From Ruminococcus sp. (GTDB lineage: Bacteria; Bacillota; Clostridia; Oscillospirales; Acutalibacteraceae): a DNA stretch of 48,914 nt. The notes below the pieces were generated by a model. That model made no database searches and was not told the origin of the DNA. It saw only the letters and a list, made by a program, of their open reading frames with translations. Below are positions 1 to 6,915 of the stretch, in pieces. Each line of letters opens with the position of its first letter. Positions within the stretch are counted from its first letter, which is position 1. Made by a program: the position numbers and the translations under genes. Where the stretch lies: NCBI GenBank assembly GCA_017416065.1, contig JAFQDM010000020.1, forward strand, positions 1 to 48,914, read 5' to 3'.

Positions 1-1
1 A

Positions 2-133
2 ATTGTCAGATTTGATTTTGATAACAAAGTGCTTACTTTAAAAGTCAGTGGCAACGGAACAGGCGGATCCGAAGATCAGCTCCCTTCTAACCCCATGGCT
101 TCTGAGCCCGATGAGTATGATCCCTTTGCCTGA
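2..133 (+). CDS. C-terminal end of an unrecognised protein (partial)
   Basis: Only the last 43 codons lie in the window, in frame 2, ending at TGA 131-133. The visible tail begins with an alternating hydrophobic/charged stretch (RFDFDNKVLTLKV), which could be a final beta strand. It then becomes Gly/Ser/Pro rich and acidic, ending PDEYDPFA, so the extreme C-terminus is probably disordered. A strong intrinsic terminator lies 44 bases downstream, so this gene ends its transcription unit. The acidic tip vaguely recalls SSB-type tails but lacks the DIPF ending, and I do not assign a family. Confidence 0.55.
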   Translation: MVRFDFDNKVLTLKVSGNGTGGSEDQLPSNPMASEPDEYDPFA

Positions 134-176
134 CCTTTTCATTCTTCTTTTCAGATGATTTCTTTTATCTAAATCA

Positions 177-208
177 GGGTGGATGCTACCTCGCATCCAC
201 CCTTTTTT
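177..208 (+). terminator. Intrinsic terminator of the upstream gene
   Basis: A perfect 10-bp stem (GGGTGGATGC 177-186 with GCATCCACCC 193-202) has a 6-base loop and is followed by six T. It separates the partial first gene from the promoter at 231-259. Confidence 0.9.
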
Positions 209-230
209 ATGTATATTTTTACTTTATATG

Positions 231-259
231 TTGCATTTCCTCTGTCGATTTGATATAAT
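231..259 (+). promoter_or_regulatory. Sigma-A type promoter of the dockerin/LRR gene cluster
   Basis: TTGCAT (231-236), a 17-base spacer and TATAAT (254-259). The expected start is near 266, giving a leader of about 36 bases with an AAGGA ribosome site near 290. It probably drives the dockerin gene and, because the next gene follows within 14 bases, the kinase-like and PqqD-like genes too. Confidence 0.8.
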
Positions 260-301
260 AAATTGGATACAAATGAATTGCAGATAAAGAAGGAATAAAG
301 T

Positions 302-1537
302 ATGAAACTAAAAACACGTTTTATTCATATTTTGGCACTTACAGTAGCTATGCTCGTGTTGTTATCAACCATATCCGTTTTCGCAGATGGTGTTGGTGAC
401 GGAGAATGGGTGTATGAAAGAACATCAGGCAACAGCGAGTATTATATAAAGAGTTACACCGGCACTTCCGACAGAGTTAAGATTCCGGCTCTCTTTCAGA
501 CCAAGCAAGTTACTAAAATTACCGAGAATGCTTTTCTGAACAATAATGTTATTTCATACGTAGAGATCCCTGCAACCATTACAGAGATTGGAAATAAAGC
601 ATTCTACGGATGCAAGTCACTCGAAGAGGTGAACATCCTCGGAAATGTAGAGGTAATCGGCGCTCATGCGTTTTATGGCTGCGTATTGCTTTCAACCGTT
701 AACATAGACGAAGTTGAAGACCTTAAGATGATTCCCAGAAACTGCTTCAGCGGATGCTTGAATCTTAAGTCCTTTGAGGTGCCCGAGGGTGTTGAATCAA
801 TAGGGGATAGAGCATTCCTTGATTGCGTATCTCTGGAAAGCATAGTTATTCCTGCTTCGGTTACATCCATCAGCGACATCGCATTCAAGAATTGTACGGA
901 TGTTACCATATACGGATATGCTGATTCATATGCCCAACAATTTGCCGCAAAGAACAATATTCCCTTTGCGCTTGTAGGGCAGGAGCCTCTGCCTACCCAG
1001 CCAAACACTCAGCAGCCCACTCTTCCTGAGGAGCTGCCCACAGCTTCAACCCCTGAAAAAGAGACAGACCCTGTAAATTCAACAGAAGCATCTTCCGGTA
1101 TTCAGGAGGACACACAGCCTACGGAAAAACCTCAGGTTCCTACCTCAACGGATCCTACAGAAAATTCTCCTGAGGATACCATGCCTTCAAATCCTATAAA
1201 TACTGAGCCTGAAGGGGATCCCTTTGATACAGCTCCGACAAACGCTTCAACAGCAGGCACAGACTCAACTGACGATCCCTCTGAGCCTTCGTCTGATAAT
1301 CAGGGTAAGAAAAAGTACATTATAGGTGACGCAGATCTTTCAGGAAAAGTTACCGTTAAAGATGCAACCCTGATTCAGAAGTATGCCGCCTCTCTGGTGA
1401 TCCTTGACAAAACCCAGCTGTTCCTTGCAAACTGTAACAGCGTCGGAGACGTTAACGTAAAGGATGCAACTCAGATCCAGAAGTACTGCGCAGGCTTTCT
1501 TAACATTTTGTTTGTAGGCCAAGAAGTTGAAATTTAA
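302..1537 (+). CDS. Secreted BspA-type leucine-rich repeat protein with C-terminal dockerin
   Basis: 411 residues. A signal peptide covers residues 1-28 (KLKTR, hydrophobic core, cleavage after VFA). Residues about 75-215 carry BspA/LRR_5-type repeats (IGNKAFYGCKSLEEV, IGAHAFYGC, IGDRAFLDCVSLESI). A Pro/Thr/Ser/Glu-rich linker spans about 225-335. A type I dockerin ends the protein (about 340-405). Its first calcium loop is canonical (D343, D345, D354); the second starts NCNSVGD and lacks some acidic ligands. Both halves carry DATxIQKY. Dockerins attach proteins to cohesin-bearing scaffoldins, so this is probably a surface or scaffold-bound adhesion protein. The ATG has an AAGGA ribosome site 7 bases upstream. 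The following kinase-like gene starts 14 bases after the stop, so the two are probably co-transcribed. The ligand is unknown. Confidence 0.88.
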   Translation: MKLKTRFIHILALTVAMLVLLSTISVFADGVGDGEWVYERTSGNSEYYIKSYTGTSDRVKIPALFQTKQVTKITENAFLNNNVISYVEIPATITEIGNKAFYGCKSLEEVNILGNVEVIGAHAFYGCVLLSTVNIDEVEDLKMIPRNCFSGCLNLKSFEVPEGVESIGDRAFLDCVSLESIVIPASVTSISDIAFKNCTDVTIYGYADSYAQQFAAKNNIPFALVGQEPLPTQPNTQQPTLPEELPTASTPEKETDPVNSTEASSGIQEDTQPTEKPQVPTSTDPTENSPEDTMPSNPINTEPEGDPFDTAPTNASTAGTDSTDDPSEPSSDNQGKKKYIIGDADLSGKVTVKDATLIQKYAASLVILDKTQLFLANCNSVGDVNVKDATQIQKYCAGFLNILFVGQEVEI

Positions 1538-1551
1538 CCTGGGTGATATTT

Positions 1552-2250
1552 ATGCCACATTATAAAATTGCAGATATCGTCTGCAGGTTTAATCCACGAT
1601 ATGAAGAGACGGCTCATTGGTATAAACCCTACGAGACGGATGCACCTCTTGATTTTGAGCGAGAGATCAGAGCCACCGATGAAAAGATAGAGTATTTTGT
1701 TCGCGAAGGAGAGGACATTACCCCTCCTCTTGCAGAAAATATGATATTAGGAGCATTGTTCAATATAGTGCTTCTTCAGTTTAACGGCAGCTATATTCAT
1801 AGCTCAGCCCTTTTATATGACGATAAGGTTTATCTGTTTTCAGGCTCCTCCGGAGTGGGAAAATCTACCCACACAAAGAAATGGTGCAGATTATTTCCTG
1901 ACAGAGCTCAGGTTATTAACGATGACAAGCCTTCTTTTCGCATTATTGACGATAAGTGCATAGTTTACGGAACCCCCTTTGCAGGCGGTACGGATATTCA
2001 CGTTAATCGTTCAGCAGAGCTTGGAGCCATCATTTTTTTGGAGCAGAGTGAAGAGAACTCAATTGAGCTTTTGCCTCCTGCAAAAGCAATCCGCTATCTG
2101 CTTGAGCAGACACCTAACAAAAGAACCGAAAAAATGGGAGAACGAATGCTGTCTTTGTATTCCGAGATCCTCACTCGTTACCCTGTTTATAAATTGCGTT
2201 GTACAGACAGTGATGATGCTGTCTATGAAGCAATGAAAATACTGGAATAA
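1552..2250 (+). CDS. HPr kinase-like P-loop protein of a RiPP-type cassette
   Basis: 232 residues from ATG 1552, chosen because GGGTGA at 1541-1546 is a well-spaced ribosome site; an upstream in-frame GTG at 1543 lies inside that site. It has the compact HprK-like fold seen in kinases of lasso-peptide clusters such as that of paeninodin. The IHSS histidine is about residue 83, the Walker A loop GSSGVGKST is about 98-106, and an NDD acidic pair is about 124-125, so the core catalytic residues look intact. It lacks the N-terminal domain and the C-terminal signature of true HprK, which is present separately at 31649. It is followed 19 bases later by a PqqD-like gene, then an ABC exporter and a nucleotidyltransferase-like gene. 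The inferred role is phosphorylation of a peptide or protein; the substrate is not identifiable here. Confidence 0.75.
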   Translation: MPHYKIADIVCRFNPRYEETAHWYKPYETDAPLDFEREIRATDEKIEYFVREGEDITPPLAENMILGALFNIVLLQFNGSYIHSSALLYDDKVYLFSGSSGVGKSTHTKKWCRLFPDRAQVINDDKPSFRIIDDKCIVYGTPFAGGTDIHVNRSAELGAIIFLEQSEENSIELLPPAKAIRYLLEQTPNKRTEKMGERMLSLYSEILTRYPVYKLRCTDSDDAVYEAMKILE

Positions 2251-2269
2251 GTCTGAAAGGAAATCAGTT

Positions 2270-2536
2270 ATGAAGATCAAAGAAAATTTTATGCTTAGAA
2301 AAGTTGCAGATTGTTTTGTTGTTGTACCTATCGGTTCTGCTGTTGCAGAGTTCAATGGTATGATCAATCTTAACGAAGCAGGAGCTTTCCTTTGGCAGCA
2401 GCTTGAGAATGATACTACAGAGGAAGCTGTTGTAAATGCTATGCTTGAGCAGTACGATGTAGATAAGGCTACAGCCGAGGCTGATGTTAAAAGATTTGTT
2501 TCACAGCTCAGAGAGGCTTCGTTGCTTGACGAATAA
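2270..2536 (+). CDS. PqqD-like peptide-binding (RRE) protein
   Basis: 88 residues. The sequence reads as a complete PqqD domain: a beta-rich N-terminus (ENFMLRKVADCFVVVPIGSAVAEFNGMI), the typical LNEAGAFLWQQLE helix and a C-terminal helical segment ending FVSQLREASLLDE. PqqD domains, also called RiPP recognition elements, bind leader peptides and hand them to modifying enzymes. It sits between the HprK-like gene and the ABC exporter. No precursor peptide is visible nearby. The ribosome site is AAAGGA upstream of ATG 2270. A terminator-like hairpin follows it at 2561. Confidence 0.82.
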   Translation: MKIKENFMLRKVADCFVVVPIGSAVAEFNGMINLNEAGAFLWQQLENDTTEEAVVNAMLEQYDVDKATAEADVKRFVSQLREASLLDE

Positions 2537-2560
2537 TCTTCATTCGCTAATTATAATAGT

Positions 2561-2590
2561 GCCGTACAGTTGACTGTGCGGCCTTATTTT
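2561..2590 (+). terminator. Terminator-like hairpin between the PqqD-like and ABC genes
   Basis: GCCGTACAG (2561-2569) pairs with CTGTGCGGC (2574-2582) over 9 bp with one G-T wobble and a TTGA loop, followed by CTTATTTT. The T tract is interrupted, so it may lower rather than abolish expression of the exporter. No convincing promoter lies between it and the ABC gene at 2622. Confidence 0.6.
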
Positions 2591-2621
2591 ACATACGTTA
2601 TTTTTGAGAAGGTGAACCCCT

Positions 2622-4364
2622 TTGAACAAAAAGTATACACTTAAAAGCATATTTCAAACCCTCACAGACAGTAAAGCTCTCAGCTGGATATCACAGGCTG
2701 CAAAAAATCAAAGATGGCTAATTATTCTTTTGGCTTTATTTAATGTGATGATGGCAGTTTCCTCTGTGGGAATATCATATATGCTCAGATTTGTTGTGAA
2801 TTCTGCAACAAATTCTGCAATGACCATTTCCGAGAAATTTGATGCAATTACTTTTTGGGGCGGAATGTTTATTGTGCTTATTCTGTCTCAGGTAATTATT
2901 CAGATAGTAGACAAGCATCTTGTGTTTAAGGTTACCGCCCGTATGACCATTGATATGAAAACGGATCTTTACAGAAAAATGCTTCGTAAGAATTACAGTC
3001 AGGTTACCCGTTTTCATACAGGTGAGATGCTCAACAGGCTTAATAACGACCTGGGTGCCATCACAAGTGCCATCACAGGGCTTATCCCCACACTCACGTA
3101 TACAATTTCAAAGCTGATAGGTATTTTTATCGTCCTTTTGTCCATAGACCCATGGTTTACCGTTATGTTTATGGCGGTGGGCATTTTTGTTTTCACAGTT
3201 TCGTTCTTCTTTAAGAAAAAGATGAAAAGCTATCACAAGCAGATCATGGAAACAGACGGCAAGATCCGTTCCTTTATGCAGGAGACACTTTCGAGCCTGC
3301 TTGTTGTGAAGATCTTCAGTGCAGAGGATAAGGTAGTTGACGTTGCAGGTGAGTTGCAGGAGGTCAACTATAAACGCAAAGCTAAAAGAAACATAATTTC
3401 TCTTGTTACTCACGGCTCGTTTGCTTTGGCTTTCCGTGCCGCATATCTTTTTGGACTTTTTTATTGTGCAGTAAAGATCGCTCAGGGTGATTCAGTTATT
3501 ACCTACGGCGTGCTTTCTCAGGTGCTTTCTCTTATTAATCAGATCAGCGCGCCCATCAATTCACTCACAAGCATTCTGCCCTCTTATTATTCCGCCATCG
3601 GCTCTGCAGAGAGAATTATGGAGTTTGAGAATATGGATGACGAGGTTGTTGTAAATGATGAAGATACAGATTTCAGCGCACTTTACCATAACCTGAATCA
3701 GATCAGATTTGATAACATTACCTTCAGATACGACAGAGACCTGATATATGACAATACAAGCCTTTCCATCGAAAAAGGCGATCTGCTTGTAATGACCGGT
3801 ATCTCAGGAATCGGCAAGAGTACCTTGCTTAAGCTGCTTCTTGGAGTATATCCCCTCGAAAGCGGAGAGATATACCTTGAGCTTAAAGACGGCAGCAAGG
3901 TAGTTGTTGACCGCAACATCCGCAGGCTGTTCTCTTACGTGCCTCAGGGTAACTTCCTGCTTTCAGGAACAATACGTGAGAACATCGCCTTTATAAAGGA
4001 CGATGCAACAGACGAGGAAATAAAGCAAGCTATTGATTTTGCTTGTGCAGATTTCATCTATACCTTACCAAAGGGTCTCGATACCGTAATAGGAGAAAAG
4101 GGAATGGGACTTTCTGAGGGACAGGTGCAGAGAGTTGCAATCGCAAGAGCTATCCTCAGCGGAGCACCCATAATCCTTTTGGATGAAGCCACTTCTGCGC
4201 TTGATGAAAATACAGAGCTCAGACTTTTAAAGAATATCAAGAAGCTGTCAAATAAAACATGTATCCTTATATCTCATAAAAAAGCGGCAAACGCTCTTTG
4301 TGATAAGGAGATTAGAATTATAGACGGAAAGATAGTGGTGTATGACCTCAATGAGCAAGCCTGA
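2622..4364 (+). CDS. ABC exporter, fused membrane and ATPase domains
   Basis: 580 residues starting at TTG 2622, supported by a strong GAGAAGGTGA ribosome site at the correct distance. Residues about 30-320 form a type-1 exporter membrane domain with about six helices. The ATPase domain has Walker A GISGIGKST (393-401), signature LSEGQ (497-501), Walker B IILLDE (517-522) and a switch histidine at 552. There is no N-terminal C39 peptidase domain. This architecture exports lipids, peptides or drugs. Within a PqqD/HprK-like cassette the likely cargo is a modified peptide, as with the D protein of lasso clusters, but that is inference. The next gene overlaps its 3' end by 23 bases. Confidence 0.85.
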   Translation: MNKKYTLKSIFQTLTDSKALSWISQAAKNQRWLIILLALFNVMMAVSSVGISYMLRFVVNSATNSAMTISEKFDAITFWGGMFIVLILSQVIIQIVDKHLVFKVTARMTIDMKTDLYRKMLRKNYSQVTRFHTGEMLNRLNNDLGAITSAITGLIPTLTYTISKLIGIFIVLLSIDPWFTVMFMAVGIFVFTVSFFFKKKMKSYHKQIMETDGKIRSFMQETLSSLLVVKIFSAEDKVVDVAGELQEVNYKRKAKRNIISLVTHGSFALAFRAAYLFGLFYCAVKIAQGDSVITYGVLSQVLSLINQISAPINSLTSILPSYYSAIGSAERIMEFENMDDEVVVNDEDTDFSALYHNLNQIRFDNITFRYDRDLIYDNTSLSIEKGDLLVMTGISGIGKSTLLKLLLGVYPLESGEIYLELKDGSKVVVDRNIRRLFSYVPQGNFLLSGTIRENIAFIKDDATDEEIKQAIDFACADFIYTLPKGLDTVIGEKGMGLSEGQVQRVAIARAILSGAPIILLDEATSALDENTELRLLKNIKKLSNKTCILISHKKAANALCDKEIRIIDGKIVVYDLNEQA

Positions 4365-5553
4365 TTCAATCTCTTTCAATGAATATAAATATTTGCTCAG
4401 ATTGCTTGCATCAGTACTCAGTGGCAAAGATGTACCGCGGCCCAATGAAACGATAAATTGGGCCACGGTTTTTTCTGCTGCTTCAAACCATTCCGTTGCG
4501 GGAATGACCTATTATGCAATCAAAAAACTCCCCTCGGACTGTATGCCTTCTGAGCAAGTGCTTGCAAGTTTTCTTTCCTCTTACAGAGCAGAGCTTGTGC
4601 TGGAGGGGAATATTCAGTTTGAAACAGAAAGGCTGTTTACTGAGTTGACCTCTGCAGGCATTGATATTTTACCTGTAAAGGGAATCCTTCTCAAAGACTA
4701 TTATCCCGTTCCTTCAATGAGAACAATGACCGATGTGGACGTTCTTTATAAACTAAAGGATAAAGAAAAGGTGATTGAGGTTTTTAAAAAGTACGGATAT
4801 ACTCTTAACAGCGATGGCTTAGGGCAGCTGGATTTTACCAAAGAGCCTGTACATCATTACGAGCTACATTCATCCTTGCTTTCTGAAGATAAAAAAGACT
4901 TCGAGTATTTCAGCAACATTTGTGAGAGAGCGATTCCCACAGAGCAACCACACATCTTTACTCTTCGTCCCGAAGATTTCTATATCTACATTCTGGAGCA
5001 TCTTGCCAAGCATATTGAAGGCGGCGGTGCAGGAATACGTATGGTTTTAGATGTTTTTGTGTACGGCAAGGCTCACAGCGAAGAATTTGATAACGATTAC
5101 GTAAATTCAGAACTTAGTAAGATAAATCTTTGCAAGTTCAGACAAAGAATAGAGGAGCTGGCTGCAAGTTGGTTTGCTTCAGATGAGCCTGATGTTGAAT
5201 CAGCTTCTGCCCGGTTTATTTTAGATTGTCCTACCTTTGGCTATGTAAGCAATGCCATTGCATATGATTCTTTGATGCAGGAACGCAGAAAAGGCAAGAA
5301 GCAATCGGGTATCTCCCGATTGCTTCGCAGAATTTTTCCCCCGACCTTTTATATTCATCGCAGGTTTCCTGTCACAAGGAAATATAAATTTTTGTATCCT
5401 TTTTTCGTTCCTGTATATTGGCTACTCAGAATATTCAAGGATAAAAACGTTAACTATTCCTCCGTTAAGCTTTATCTGAATCCCGAAGATTCTAAAAAAT
5501 TTGACAGCATCAACAGGATGATAGATGAGCTTGGGTTTGATAAAAGAGTATGA
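4342..5553 (+). CDS. PF14907-type nucleotidyltransferase-like protein
   Basis: 403 residues, overlapping the exporter gene. It matches the uncharacterised NTP_transf_5 family: a KGILLKDYYP segment, then PSMRTMTDVDVL with acidic residues at about 131 and 133 in the position of the metal-binding DxD of nucleotidyltransferases, and a downstream EHLAKHIEGGGAGIRMVLDV block that is typical of the family. Members accompany HprK-like kinases in some lasso-peptide clusters. Activity and substrate are not known from sequence. ATG 4342 was kept because GTGGTG lies just upstream; ATG 4351 is an alternative. Confidence 0.78.
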   Translation: MTSMSKPDSISFNEYKYLLRLLASVLSGKDVPRPNETINWATVFSAASNHSVAGMTYYAIKKLPSDCMPSEQVLASFLSSYRAELVLEGNIQFETERLFTELTSAGIDILPVKGILLKDYYPVPSMRTMTDVDVLYKLKDKEKVIEVFKKYGYTLNSDGLGQLDFTKEPVHHYELHSSLLSEDKKDFEYFSNICERAIPTEQPHIFTLRPEDFYIYILEHLAKHIEGGGAGIRMVLDVFVYGKAHSEEFDNDYVNSELSKINLCKFRQRIEELAASWFASDEPDVESASARFILDCPTFGYVSNAIAYDSLMQERRKGKKQSGISRLLRRIFPPTFYIHRRFPVTRKYKFLYPFFVPVYWLLRIFKDKNVNYSSVKLYLNPEDSKKFDSINRMIDELGFDKRV

Positions 5554-5574
5554 AATGCTTTTGAGGTTAGTGGA

Positions 5575-6213
5575 ATGAAGAAATATAAAACTATAATCTG
5601 GGACTTTAACGGAACGATCATTGATGACGTTAATGCGGCCTTGGGTGCTGTGAACGATATGCTCACCAAACGTTGTCAAAAGCCCATTGACCTTCAAAGG
5701 TACAGAGACGCAATAGATATCCCCATTTGGAACTTCTATCTTACAGTCTTTGATCCGGGCACGATCACCCGTGAAGAAGCAATAGTTGAATTTGACCTTG
5801 GGGTAGACAAGCATCTGCAAAAGAATCCTCTTATGCCTTATGCAGACAAGGCTCTTTCTTATTTTAATACCCTCGGCAAGCGGCAGATCATCGTCTCGTC
5901 ATCTCATATTGATAAAGTCAGAAAACAGCTTGCAACTCTGGGTGTGGAGAATTATTTTACTCAGGTGCTTGCTTTGTCAGACTACTACGCAGGGGACAAG
6001 ACTCACCTTGCCTGTGAATATATGAAAGCACACGGCCTGCTCCCGTCAGAAACCTTGGTCATAGGGGACTGTGTTGCGGATTTTCGTATGGCAAATGAGC
6101 TTGGCTGTGATTGCATCCTCAACACAATGGGGCATCAAAGCGCAGAAGCCCTCTTCAAAACAGGTGCCGTAGTCATAGATTCACTATCAGAGCTTATTAA
6201 TATTGTAAAATAA
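5575..6213 (+). CDS. HAD-superfamily hydrolase-like protein with DxN motif
   Basis: 212 residues with phosphoglycolate-phosphatase-like layout. Motif I is D10-F-N12-G-T instead of DxDGT. Motif II is IVSSS (106-110), the conserved lysine is in GDK (142) and motif IV is GDCVAD with D165 and D169. The cap region lies between motifs I and II. The second aspartate of motif I normally acts as acid/base in phosphomonoesterases, so the Asn may change the reaction or slow it. The gene follows the nucleotidyltransferase-like gene by 21 bases and ends the cassette before a terminator. The substrate is unknown; a role in removing or processing a phosphate added by the cassette kinase is only a guess. Confidence 0.75.
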   Translation: MKKYKTIIWDFNGTIIDDVNAALGAVNDMLTKRCQKPIDLQRYRDAIDIPIWNFYLTVFDPGTITREEAIVEFDLGVDKHLQKNPLMPYADKALSYFNTLGKRQIIVSSSHIDKVRKQLATLGVENYFTQVLALSDYYAGDKTHLACEYMKAHGLLPSETLVIGDCVADFRMANELGCDCILNTMGHQSAEALFKTGAVVIDSLSELINIVK

Positions 6214-6215
6214 AG

Positions 6216-6253
6216 AAAACCGTATGTACTCGCTTCAGAATACATACGGTTTT
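6216..6253. terminator. Bidirectional terminator between the HAD gene and rex
   Basis: AAAACCGTATGTA (6216-6228) pairs perfectly with TACATACGGTTTT (6241-6253) around a 12-base loop. A and T runs at both ends let it serve the forward cassette and the reverse rex operon. Confidence 0.85.
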
Positions 6254-6267
6254 GCTGTTATTAAGAT

Positions 6268-6915
6268 TTAATTGTTTCTGTCCTTACTTTTCATAAGGTA
6301 AGCAAGGGTCATCAGGCTTTCGCTCAGGTGCACGTCCTCAACTGCACAGTCAGGGTAGTTAGTGCGGATGTCATAGTGGCTGAAATTCAGAAAGTTTCTG
6401 ATTCCTGCCGCGTAGAGCTTCTCCACAACTGCCCCTGCAGAGGTAGTAGGCAAGCAAAGTATGGCCGCATCAATGGAGTTTTCGCTCATAAACTTATCAA
6501 GCTTTGAGTCGTCGTTTATGATGAATCCTGCAAGCTCCGTGCCTACAAGCTCAGGGTTTTTGTCAAAGAGCCCCTTGAGCTGAAAACCGAACTTTTCAAA
6601 ATCAAAGTGGTAGAGTACTGCTCTGCCAAGATTTCCGATTCCGTAGATCACAGTATTTTTTATGGTATCAATGCCCAAAAGCTTTGCAATCTCCTGGCGG
6701 AGTGTTGCCACAAAGTATCCGTAGCCCTGCTGACCGAAGCCGCCAAAGCAGTTCAGGTCCTGCCTTACCTGCGAGGCTGTGATGTTCATAATCTCAGCAA
6801 GCTTTCGGGAGGATATTTTGTCCACACCGCTTTGTTCAAGAGTACAAAGACATCTGTAATATTTAGGCAGTCTGCGAATAACAGGCATGGAGATCTGTCC
6901 ATCTGTTTTGCTCAT
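6268..6915 (-). CDS. rex: Redox-sensing transcriptional repressor Rex
   Basis: 215 residues, the usual Rex length. The N-terminal winged helix contains MPVIRRLPKYYRCL and SSRKLAEIMNITASQVRQDL. The Rossmann domain begins VIYGIGNLGRAV (glycines 92, 94, 97), and the C-terminal domain-swap helix ends the protein. Rex senses the NADH/NAD+ ratio and represses fermentation and respiration genes when NADH is low. It is the last gene of a reverse operon, 24 bases after icd, an arrangement that would tie 2-oxoglutarate synthesis to redox state. I saw no clear TTGTTAAN4TTAACAA-like Rex site in front of the operon. Confidence 0.93.
   Translation of the reverse strand: MSKTDGQISMPVIRRLPKYYRCLCTLEQSGVDKISSRKLAEIMNITASQVRQDLNCFGGFGQQGYGYFVATLRQEIAKLLGIDTIKNTVIYGIGNLGRAVLYHFDFEKFGFQLKGLFDKNPELVGTELAGFIINDDSKLDKFMSENSIDAAILCLPTTSAGAVVEKLYAAGIRNFLNFSHYDIRTNYPDCAVEDVHLSESLMTLAYLMKSKDRNN

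Follow-up and report, generated by a model that had tools for sequence, protein, structure and literature searches.

Gene content at the contig end

The window, meaning the whole 48,914-nucleotide stretch of Ruminococcus sp. DNA analysed here, represents contig C17; the genome is 85% complete, and the contig ends at base 1. The kinase, PqqD, ABC, PF14907 and HAD genes at 1552-6213 are all co-directional with nearly no gaps between them (Table 1), and the RiPP-type tailoring and export cassette that an earlier note recognised here, with its paeninodin-like kinase, PqqD and PF14907 gene types, is present as described. Table 1 also compares these genes with those of the Linear Polyphosphorylated Peptides (LPPs), reported in May 2026 with the lpp cluster of Paenibacillus alginolyticus DSM5050, for which kinase, RRE and peptidase functions were shown experimentally; that report, in which B. 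subtilis served as a host species, gives the precursor leader as YxxPxVLxHQxIxFETxxS and places several phosphates on core Ser3 (PMC13381572).

Table 1. Features at the left end of the window
Feature	Position	Strand	Remarks
C-terminal 43 residues of RiPP-type precursor, ending ..SEPDEYDPFA	2..133	+	5' end lost at contig end
Terminator-like hairpin directly 3' of precursor	176..203	+	
Secreted BspA-type LRR protein, C-terminal dockerin-like repeats	302..1537	+	PF13306 2.1e-35; PF00404 0.041, below cut-off
HprK/PEPCK-fold kinase, LppK-like	1552..2250	+	Walker A GSSGVGKS and INDDKPS intact
Stand-alone PqqD / RiPP recognition element (RRE), LppB-like	2270..2536	+	PF05402 8.8e-21
Terminator-like hairpin, PqqD/ABC intergenic	2561..2582	+	LppS site in many other Ruminococcus loci
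MsbA-type ABC exporter, LppD-like	2622..4364	+	Pfam/NCBIfam
PF14907 nucleotidyltransferase-like protein, LppN-like	4342..5553	+	PF14907 3.9e-44
HAD-family phosphatase-like protein, DFNGT motif	5575..6213	+	

No C39 peptidase domain was found among the Pfam matches of the ABC exporter, and its top NCBIfam model, MsbA (2.8e-72), scored under that model's equivalog cut-off. Because positions 1-6400 hold 10 terminator-like hairpins, compared with 5.0 in shuffled sequences, the single hairpin after the precursor is weak evidence. Such a hairpin follows the precursor in 11/11 clade loci including the window, and folding places one between PqqD and the ABC gene in 11/11 clade loci, both counts being without a control.

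A precursor family at a conserved position

The earlier note described the cassette as lacking a precursor, which proved incorrect. With a precursor model built from the precursors of ten relatives, the window fragment being left out, the fragment at the left edge ranked first of 1084 window fragments (E = 2.6e-5; runner-up 0.74), and full-length homologues were found at the equivalent position in all ten of these relatives (L195-L202, L204 and L205). These precursors are 46-57 residues long as listed, with a conserved leader and a variable core; all ten have a Y-x-x-P leader and [DN]P[FW] near the C-terminus, and HQxIxFET is found in none of their leaders. The leader of the window precursor, including the YxxP position, lies beyond the contig end, and the Ser in the remaining fragment aligns poorly with the conserved Ser. 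NCBIfam models matched none of 10 peptides, including the window fragment, at E ≤ 10, and a Pfam scan of nine peptides at E ≤ 1 gave nothing meaningful, with one chance match at 0.13.

These relatives came from a scan of 84,980 species genomes, for which close PqqD sequences were used since a broad PqqD alignment was too weakly conserved; 130 relatives were obtained, and the best 80 were kept as loci. Within these best 80 of 130, PqqD identity was at least 66% at 13 loci, made up of 10 whole cassettes and three lone paralogues. The order in all 10 cassettes, all from Ruminococcus, was giant surface protein, precursor, LRR/dockerin protein, kinase, PqqD, ABC, PF14907 and HAD, with the giant gene itself interrupted by the contig end in L201 and L205 (L199 and L201 were taken as the same contigs as G026 and G020). 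The LRR/dockerin gene was common to the 10 closest cassette loci, the HAD gene occurred in all 11 LppS-less cassettes (the window and 10 relatives), and no scatter of the genes among relatives, a prospect raised in the earlier note, was seen. We also observed a second PqqD paralogue that stands alone, without a cassette, in the same clade (L035, at G000:C31 3560-3823, and the three lone paralogues L203, L206 and L207).

The B2 peptidase and cyclase of lasso-peptide clusters, which the earlier note had found missing, were sought more widely, and the observation held. Transglut_core3, the B2 domain, gave no match at E ≤ 0.01 in the 85%-complete genome of the window and none over the cut-off in the genomes of the 10 relatives, where two weak matches carry internal stops. 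The cyclase family PF00733 has four matches in the window's own genome, none on C17, and matches somewhere in all 10 relatives' genomes, none of them recognised in the cassettes. A lasso cluster lying just beyond the window was rejected: in the relatives the cassette is complete and flanked on its left by the giant gene and, on its right where the contig continues, by a trio of genes length-matched to the window's Rex gene and two neighbours (Rex was scanned).

Kinase and recognition element

Since a sequence search of the PDB with the kinase returned nothing useful, we compared folds, and the best assignment was HprK/P (Foldseek E = 1.3e-6). Walker A and NDD are both missing from 8 of 35 kinase homologues (L045, L047, L050, L057, L058, L063, L067 and L069), and the HprK-like proteins at these loci, in cassettes otherwise alike, are likely pseudokinases. 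Because eight loci carry a homologue without Walker A, the kinase appears not to be indispensable everywhere, and some lineages may skip phosphorylation.

By phmmer, the window PqqD matched the lasso RREs TbiB1 (3.1e-5) and PbaB1 (0.0039) before LppB (0.18); in sequence terms the window RRE is nearer to lasso RREs than to LppB, which counts against an LPP reading.

Other kinase and RRE systems were noted alongside. A second RRE system with an HprK-like kinase occurs at L036 (G000:C19), L083, L085 and L081, where the accompanying enzyme is presumably a radical SAM enzyme, with what we take to be CotH-like or Wzc-like proteins near some; L081 and L085 also encode a peptide that contains Cys and has a YxKP leader. 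Another HprK-like gene is found in five Ruminococcus genomes (L278, at G000:C9, L279, L280, L281 and L282), within a gene run that we assume to be PrkC/RsgA-like. On the Butyrivibrio fibrisolvens D1 plasmid pNP243 (L275, 8428-9417), a 57-residue peptide beginning MKKAYVKPEL is followed by PqqD, an S24/S26 peptidase and pssD/pssE genes.

An LppS homologue is encoded away from the cassette

The LPP peptidase LppS is absent from the window and from the 10 closest cassette loci, yet an LppS homologue is encoded elsewhere in all 10 genomes with these LppS-less cassettes (best E per genome 1.6e-45 to 2.8e-40), and the window's own genome has one on C10 (5.7e-40). Over 59 genomes, uncorrected for relatedness, 43 had both PqqD and LppS, none had PqqD only, two had LppS only and 14 had neither. 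The missing in-cluster LppS places the cassette outside the LPPs in the strict sense, and the statement that it works like an LPP stands. Orphan LppS homologues were also seen beside dockerin-like or large surface proteins at L135, L136, L137, L138 and L146, where no PqqD or kinase was labelled; a gene near these homologues is presumably metallo-hydrolase-like.

Five genomes (G001, G002, G029, G032 and G034) keep the kinase gene together with the giant, precursor and LRR/dockerin genes, and have their PqqD-LppS pair at a second locus. That the gene set is divided in this way between two loci speaks for a single pathway. In four of the five genomes, NTP5 and what we assume to be groESL accompany the split-off PqqD-LppS pair. 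G032 is R. bromii ATCC 27255, whose precursor, MKKEYSSPEFELVKF.., is located at G032:C63:120366, so that a culturable type strain carries this system.

Precursors are dispersed and match their recognition element

Searching 59 genomes with a 45-position precursor model gave 96 matches at E ≤ 1e-3, with a maximum of 14 in one genome (G007) and 13 in G015, which reached 20, the highest count, at E ≤ 1. In related genomes the matches were mostly on contigs without the cassette, and the window's own genome has two further matches, on C8 (3.1e-4) and C5 (5.1e-4). The earlier note's suggestion of a substrate made elsewhere therefore holds for other genomes of the genus, with their many precursors away from the cassette.

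Across the 59 genomes, 35 had both PqqD and the precursor, eight had PqqD with no precursor at E ≤ 1e-3, one had a precursor without PqqD and 15 had neither (Fisher 1.6e-7, relatedness uncorrected); with one genome each from 23 other families, the corresponding counts were 6, 2, 0 and 15 (p = 2.8e-4). The leader class also tracks the RRE class. All 25 class-i leaders (..VEELTKxDVLCAS) are confined to 6 of 36 same-genus genomes, those with a class-C PqqD, such that class-i leaders occur in 6/6 genomes with this PqqD class and 0/30 without it; both sets of classes were defined after inspection of the sequences, with 60 fetched PqqDs classed, and a p value here is indicative only. These observations suggest that many scattered precursors can share one RiPP machine.

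Precursor genes often follow genes for large, putatively secreted proteins

We examined the neighbours of 95 of the 96 precursors, one lying outside the fetched sequence. An ORF of at least 450 aa was directly upstream of 62/95 precursors, compared with 22/392 (5.6%) for a control of 392 other genes of 100-400 aa from the same loci, a comparison slightly biased towards precursors in that upstream ORFs were read stop to stop and control ORFs start to stop. For 74/95 precursors, a same-strand ORF of at least 90 aa ended -12..65 bp upstream, with a median gap of 15 bp among the 74; 21/95 had no such ORF, five of which had less than 400 bp of upstream sequence. Where the start of the upstream ORF was visible, 37 of 40 passed a crude signal-peptide test, and by a crude pattern 16/95 precursors had a dockerin-like gene no more than 200 bp downstream. 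InlB B-repeats were present in all three clade giants scanned, and those of L195 and L038 also have CBM26 starch-binding modules over the cut-off. The genomic pattern hints at a tie between LPP-like peptides and large secreted proteins that carry InlB repeats, LRRs and, in some cases, starch-binding modules.

Leader similarity also tracks similarity of the C-terminal 70 residues of the upstream protein within single genomes (Mantel r 0.61-0.70, three genomes), and the correlation was 0.56 over all 72 pairs. For the same 60 pairs, r was 0.62 with the C-terminal 70 residues and 0.37 with a stretch 250-400 residues ahead of the C-terminus. Part of this correlation may stem from en-bloc duplication.

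This pairing bears on the possibility that the same LPP-like cassette yields a free, diffusible signal or antimicrobial, for which the upstream surface genes merely supply a promoter. The variable cores and the precursors without an upstream surface gene fit such a product, as does the patchy distribution of LPPs in Bacilli, where at least 61 gain/loss events are reported and the pattern is called typical of biological-conflict genes (PMC13381572). However, the close placement of most precursors behind long ORFs, the signal peptides predicted for nearly all of those ORFs with a visible start and the leader/C-terminus correlation, even if it is partly due to duplication, all argue against it, and we consider a free peptide unlikely.

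A model for the cassette

We favour the reading, to which we give a probability of about 75%, that the cassette is an LPP-like variant making a modified linear peptide and that the peptides partner surface adhesins. PqqD would bind the Y-x-x-P leader of the approximately 50-residue precursor encoded at the left edge of the window, and the HprK-like kinase would phosphorylate the conserved Ser close to where leader and core meet, which corresponds to S3 of LppA. The PF14907 enzyme may then attach a further group to the Ser phosphate, the HAD enzyme may edit or recycle phosphate, and the MsbA-type ABC protein would export the modified peptide. The leader might be cut off by the SipW-like peptidase encoded elsewhere (C10) or be retained, and the peptide would act at the cell surface with the upstream giant protein and the neighbouring LRR/dockerin protein. 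A more specific version, which we put forward tentatively and think somewhat doubtful as a whole, is that each adhesin shares a transcript with an RRE-leader peptide of its own, that one machine modifies at least a dozen of these peptides per genome in trans, and that each peptide serves to anchor, mature or crosslink the adhesin it belongs to, on starch for instance, such that these peptides would not be free natural products.

Alternatively, the cassette might act on the giant protein or on the LRR/dockerin protein, to which PqqD would bind, with no peptide substrate involved. Surface proteins do adjoin the enzymes in the 10 closest cassette loci, and a short stretch of 19 aa in the window LRR/dockerin linker resembles the core of the precursor at 57.9% (E = 0.005, without composition correction), but the small precursors bear an N-terminal RRE-binding motif and keep their position in 10/10 relatives, which makes this alternative very improbable. 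Decay of a lasso-peptide cluster after loss of B2 and the cyclase would account for the kinase, PqqD and PF14907-like types common to paeninodin clusters and for the YxxP motif, which is what lasso RREs bind, but it is scarcely credible, since the identical order and open frames in the 10 closest cassette loci argue against decay, no B2 domain passes its cut-off in the genomes searched, as reported above, and LPP RREs form a separate clade according to the LPP report (PMC13381572).

If LPP-like peptides have large secreted proteins as concrete partners, as the favoured reading holds, this offers a clue to the role of LPPs, which is given as unknown in the one paper found on them (PMC13381572).

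Comparison with known systems

HprK-related proteins paired with PqqD-family proteins are known from the HPr-rel-A (TIGR04352/TIGR04353) and SynChlorMet ScmC/ScmD (TIGR04249/TIGR04248) systems. All four models scored below their cut-offs in the window (HprK_rel_A, 12.5 bits against 200; PqqD_rel_X, 18.4 against 35). Paeninodin-like lasso peptides share with the cassette the kinase, RRE and PF14907-like gene types and a Y/WxxP leader motif, but the cassette is without their B2 peptidase and asparagine-synthetase-like cyclase.

The closest likeness is to the LPPs. Both have a discrete PqqD-type RRE, an HprK-like kinase, an NTP transferase, which we infer to be PF14907 in the LPP paper as well, and an MsbA-like exporter, and both have a small precursor with a variable core and, as seen in the ten relatives, a YxxP leader, and no macrolactam cyclase. 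LPPs are called restricted to Bacillota in their report (PMC13381572), whereas a Phocaeicola massiliensis plasmid record (OY725995.1, 2060-6411), a single record from Bacteroidota, has five LPP-type enzyme genes in a row: PqqD (1.2e-12), PF14907 (2e-41), ABC (1.5e-32), a kinase homologous to that of the window (30% over 152 aa, 1e-19) and an LppS homologue (33%, 1e-8). Outside Bacillota, the LPP-type system is seen here as an enzyme set.

In the open-licence PMC literature we found no report of LPPs in Ruminococcus or of a pairing with surface proteins, nor of many dispersed precursors per related genome. LPP clusters have one to three precursors each, in contrast to the many dispersed precursors of Ruminococcus genomes, and many-precursor, single-machine systems of this kind would escape mining centred on cyclase-bearing clusters. 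The leaders of the cassette clade also differ from those of LPPs in lacking HQxIxFET. The earlier note had proposed a new type of system; the enzyme set itself had been published as LPP (PMC13381572), and what is new is the variant in Ruminococcus, which in place of LppS has HAD, LRR/dockerin and giant surface-protein genes and is tied to surface proteins.
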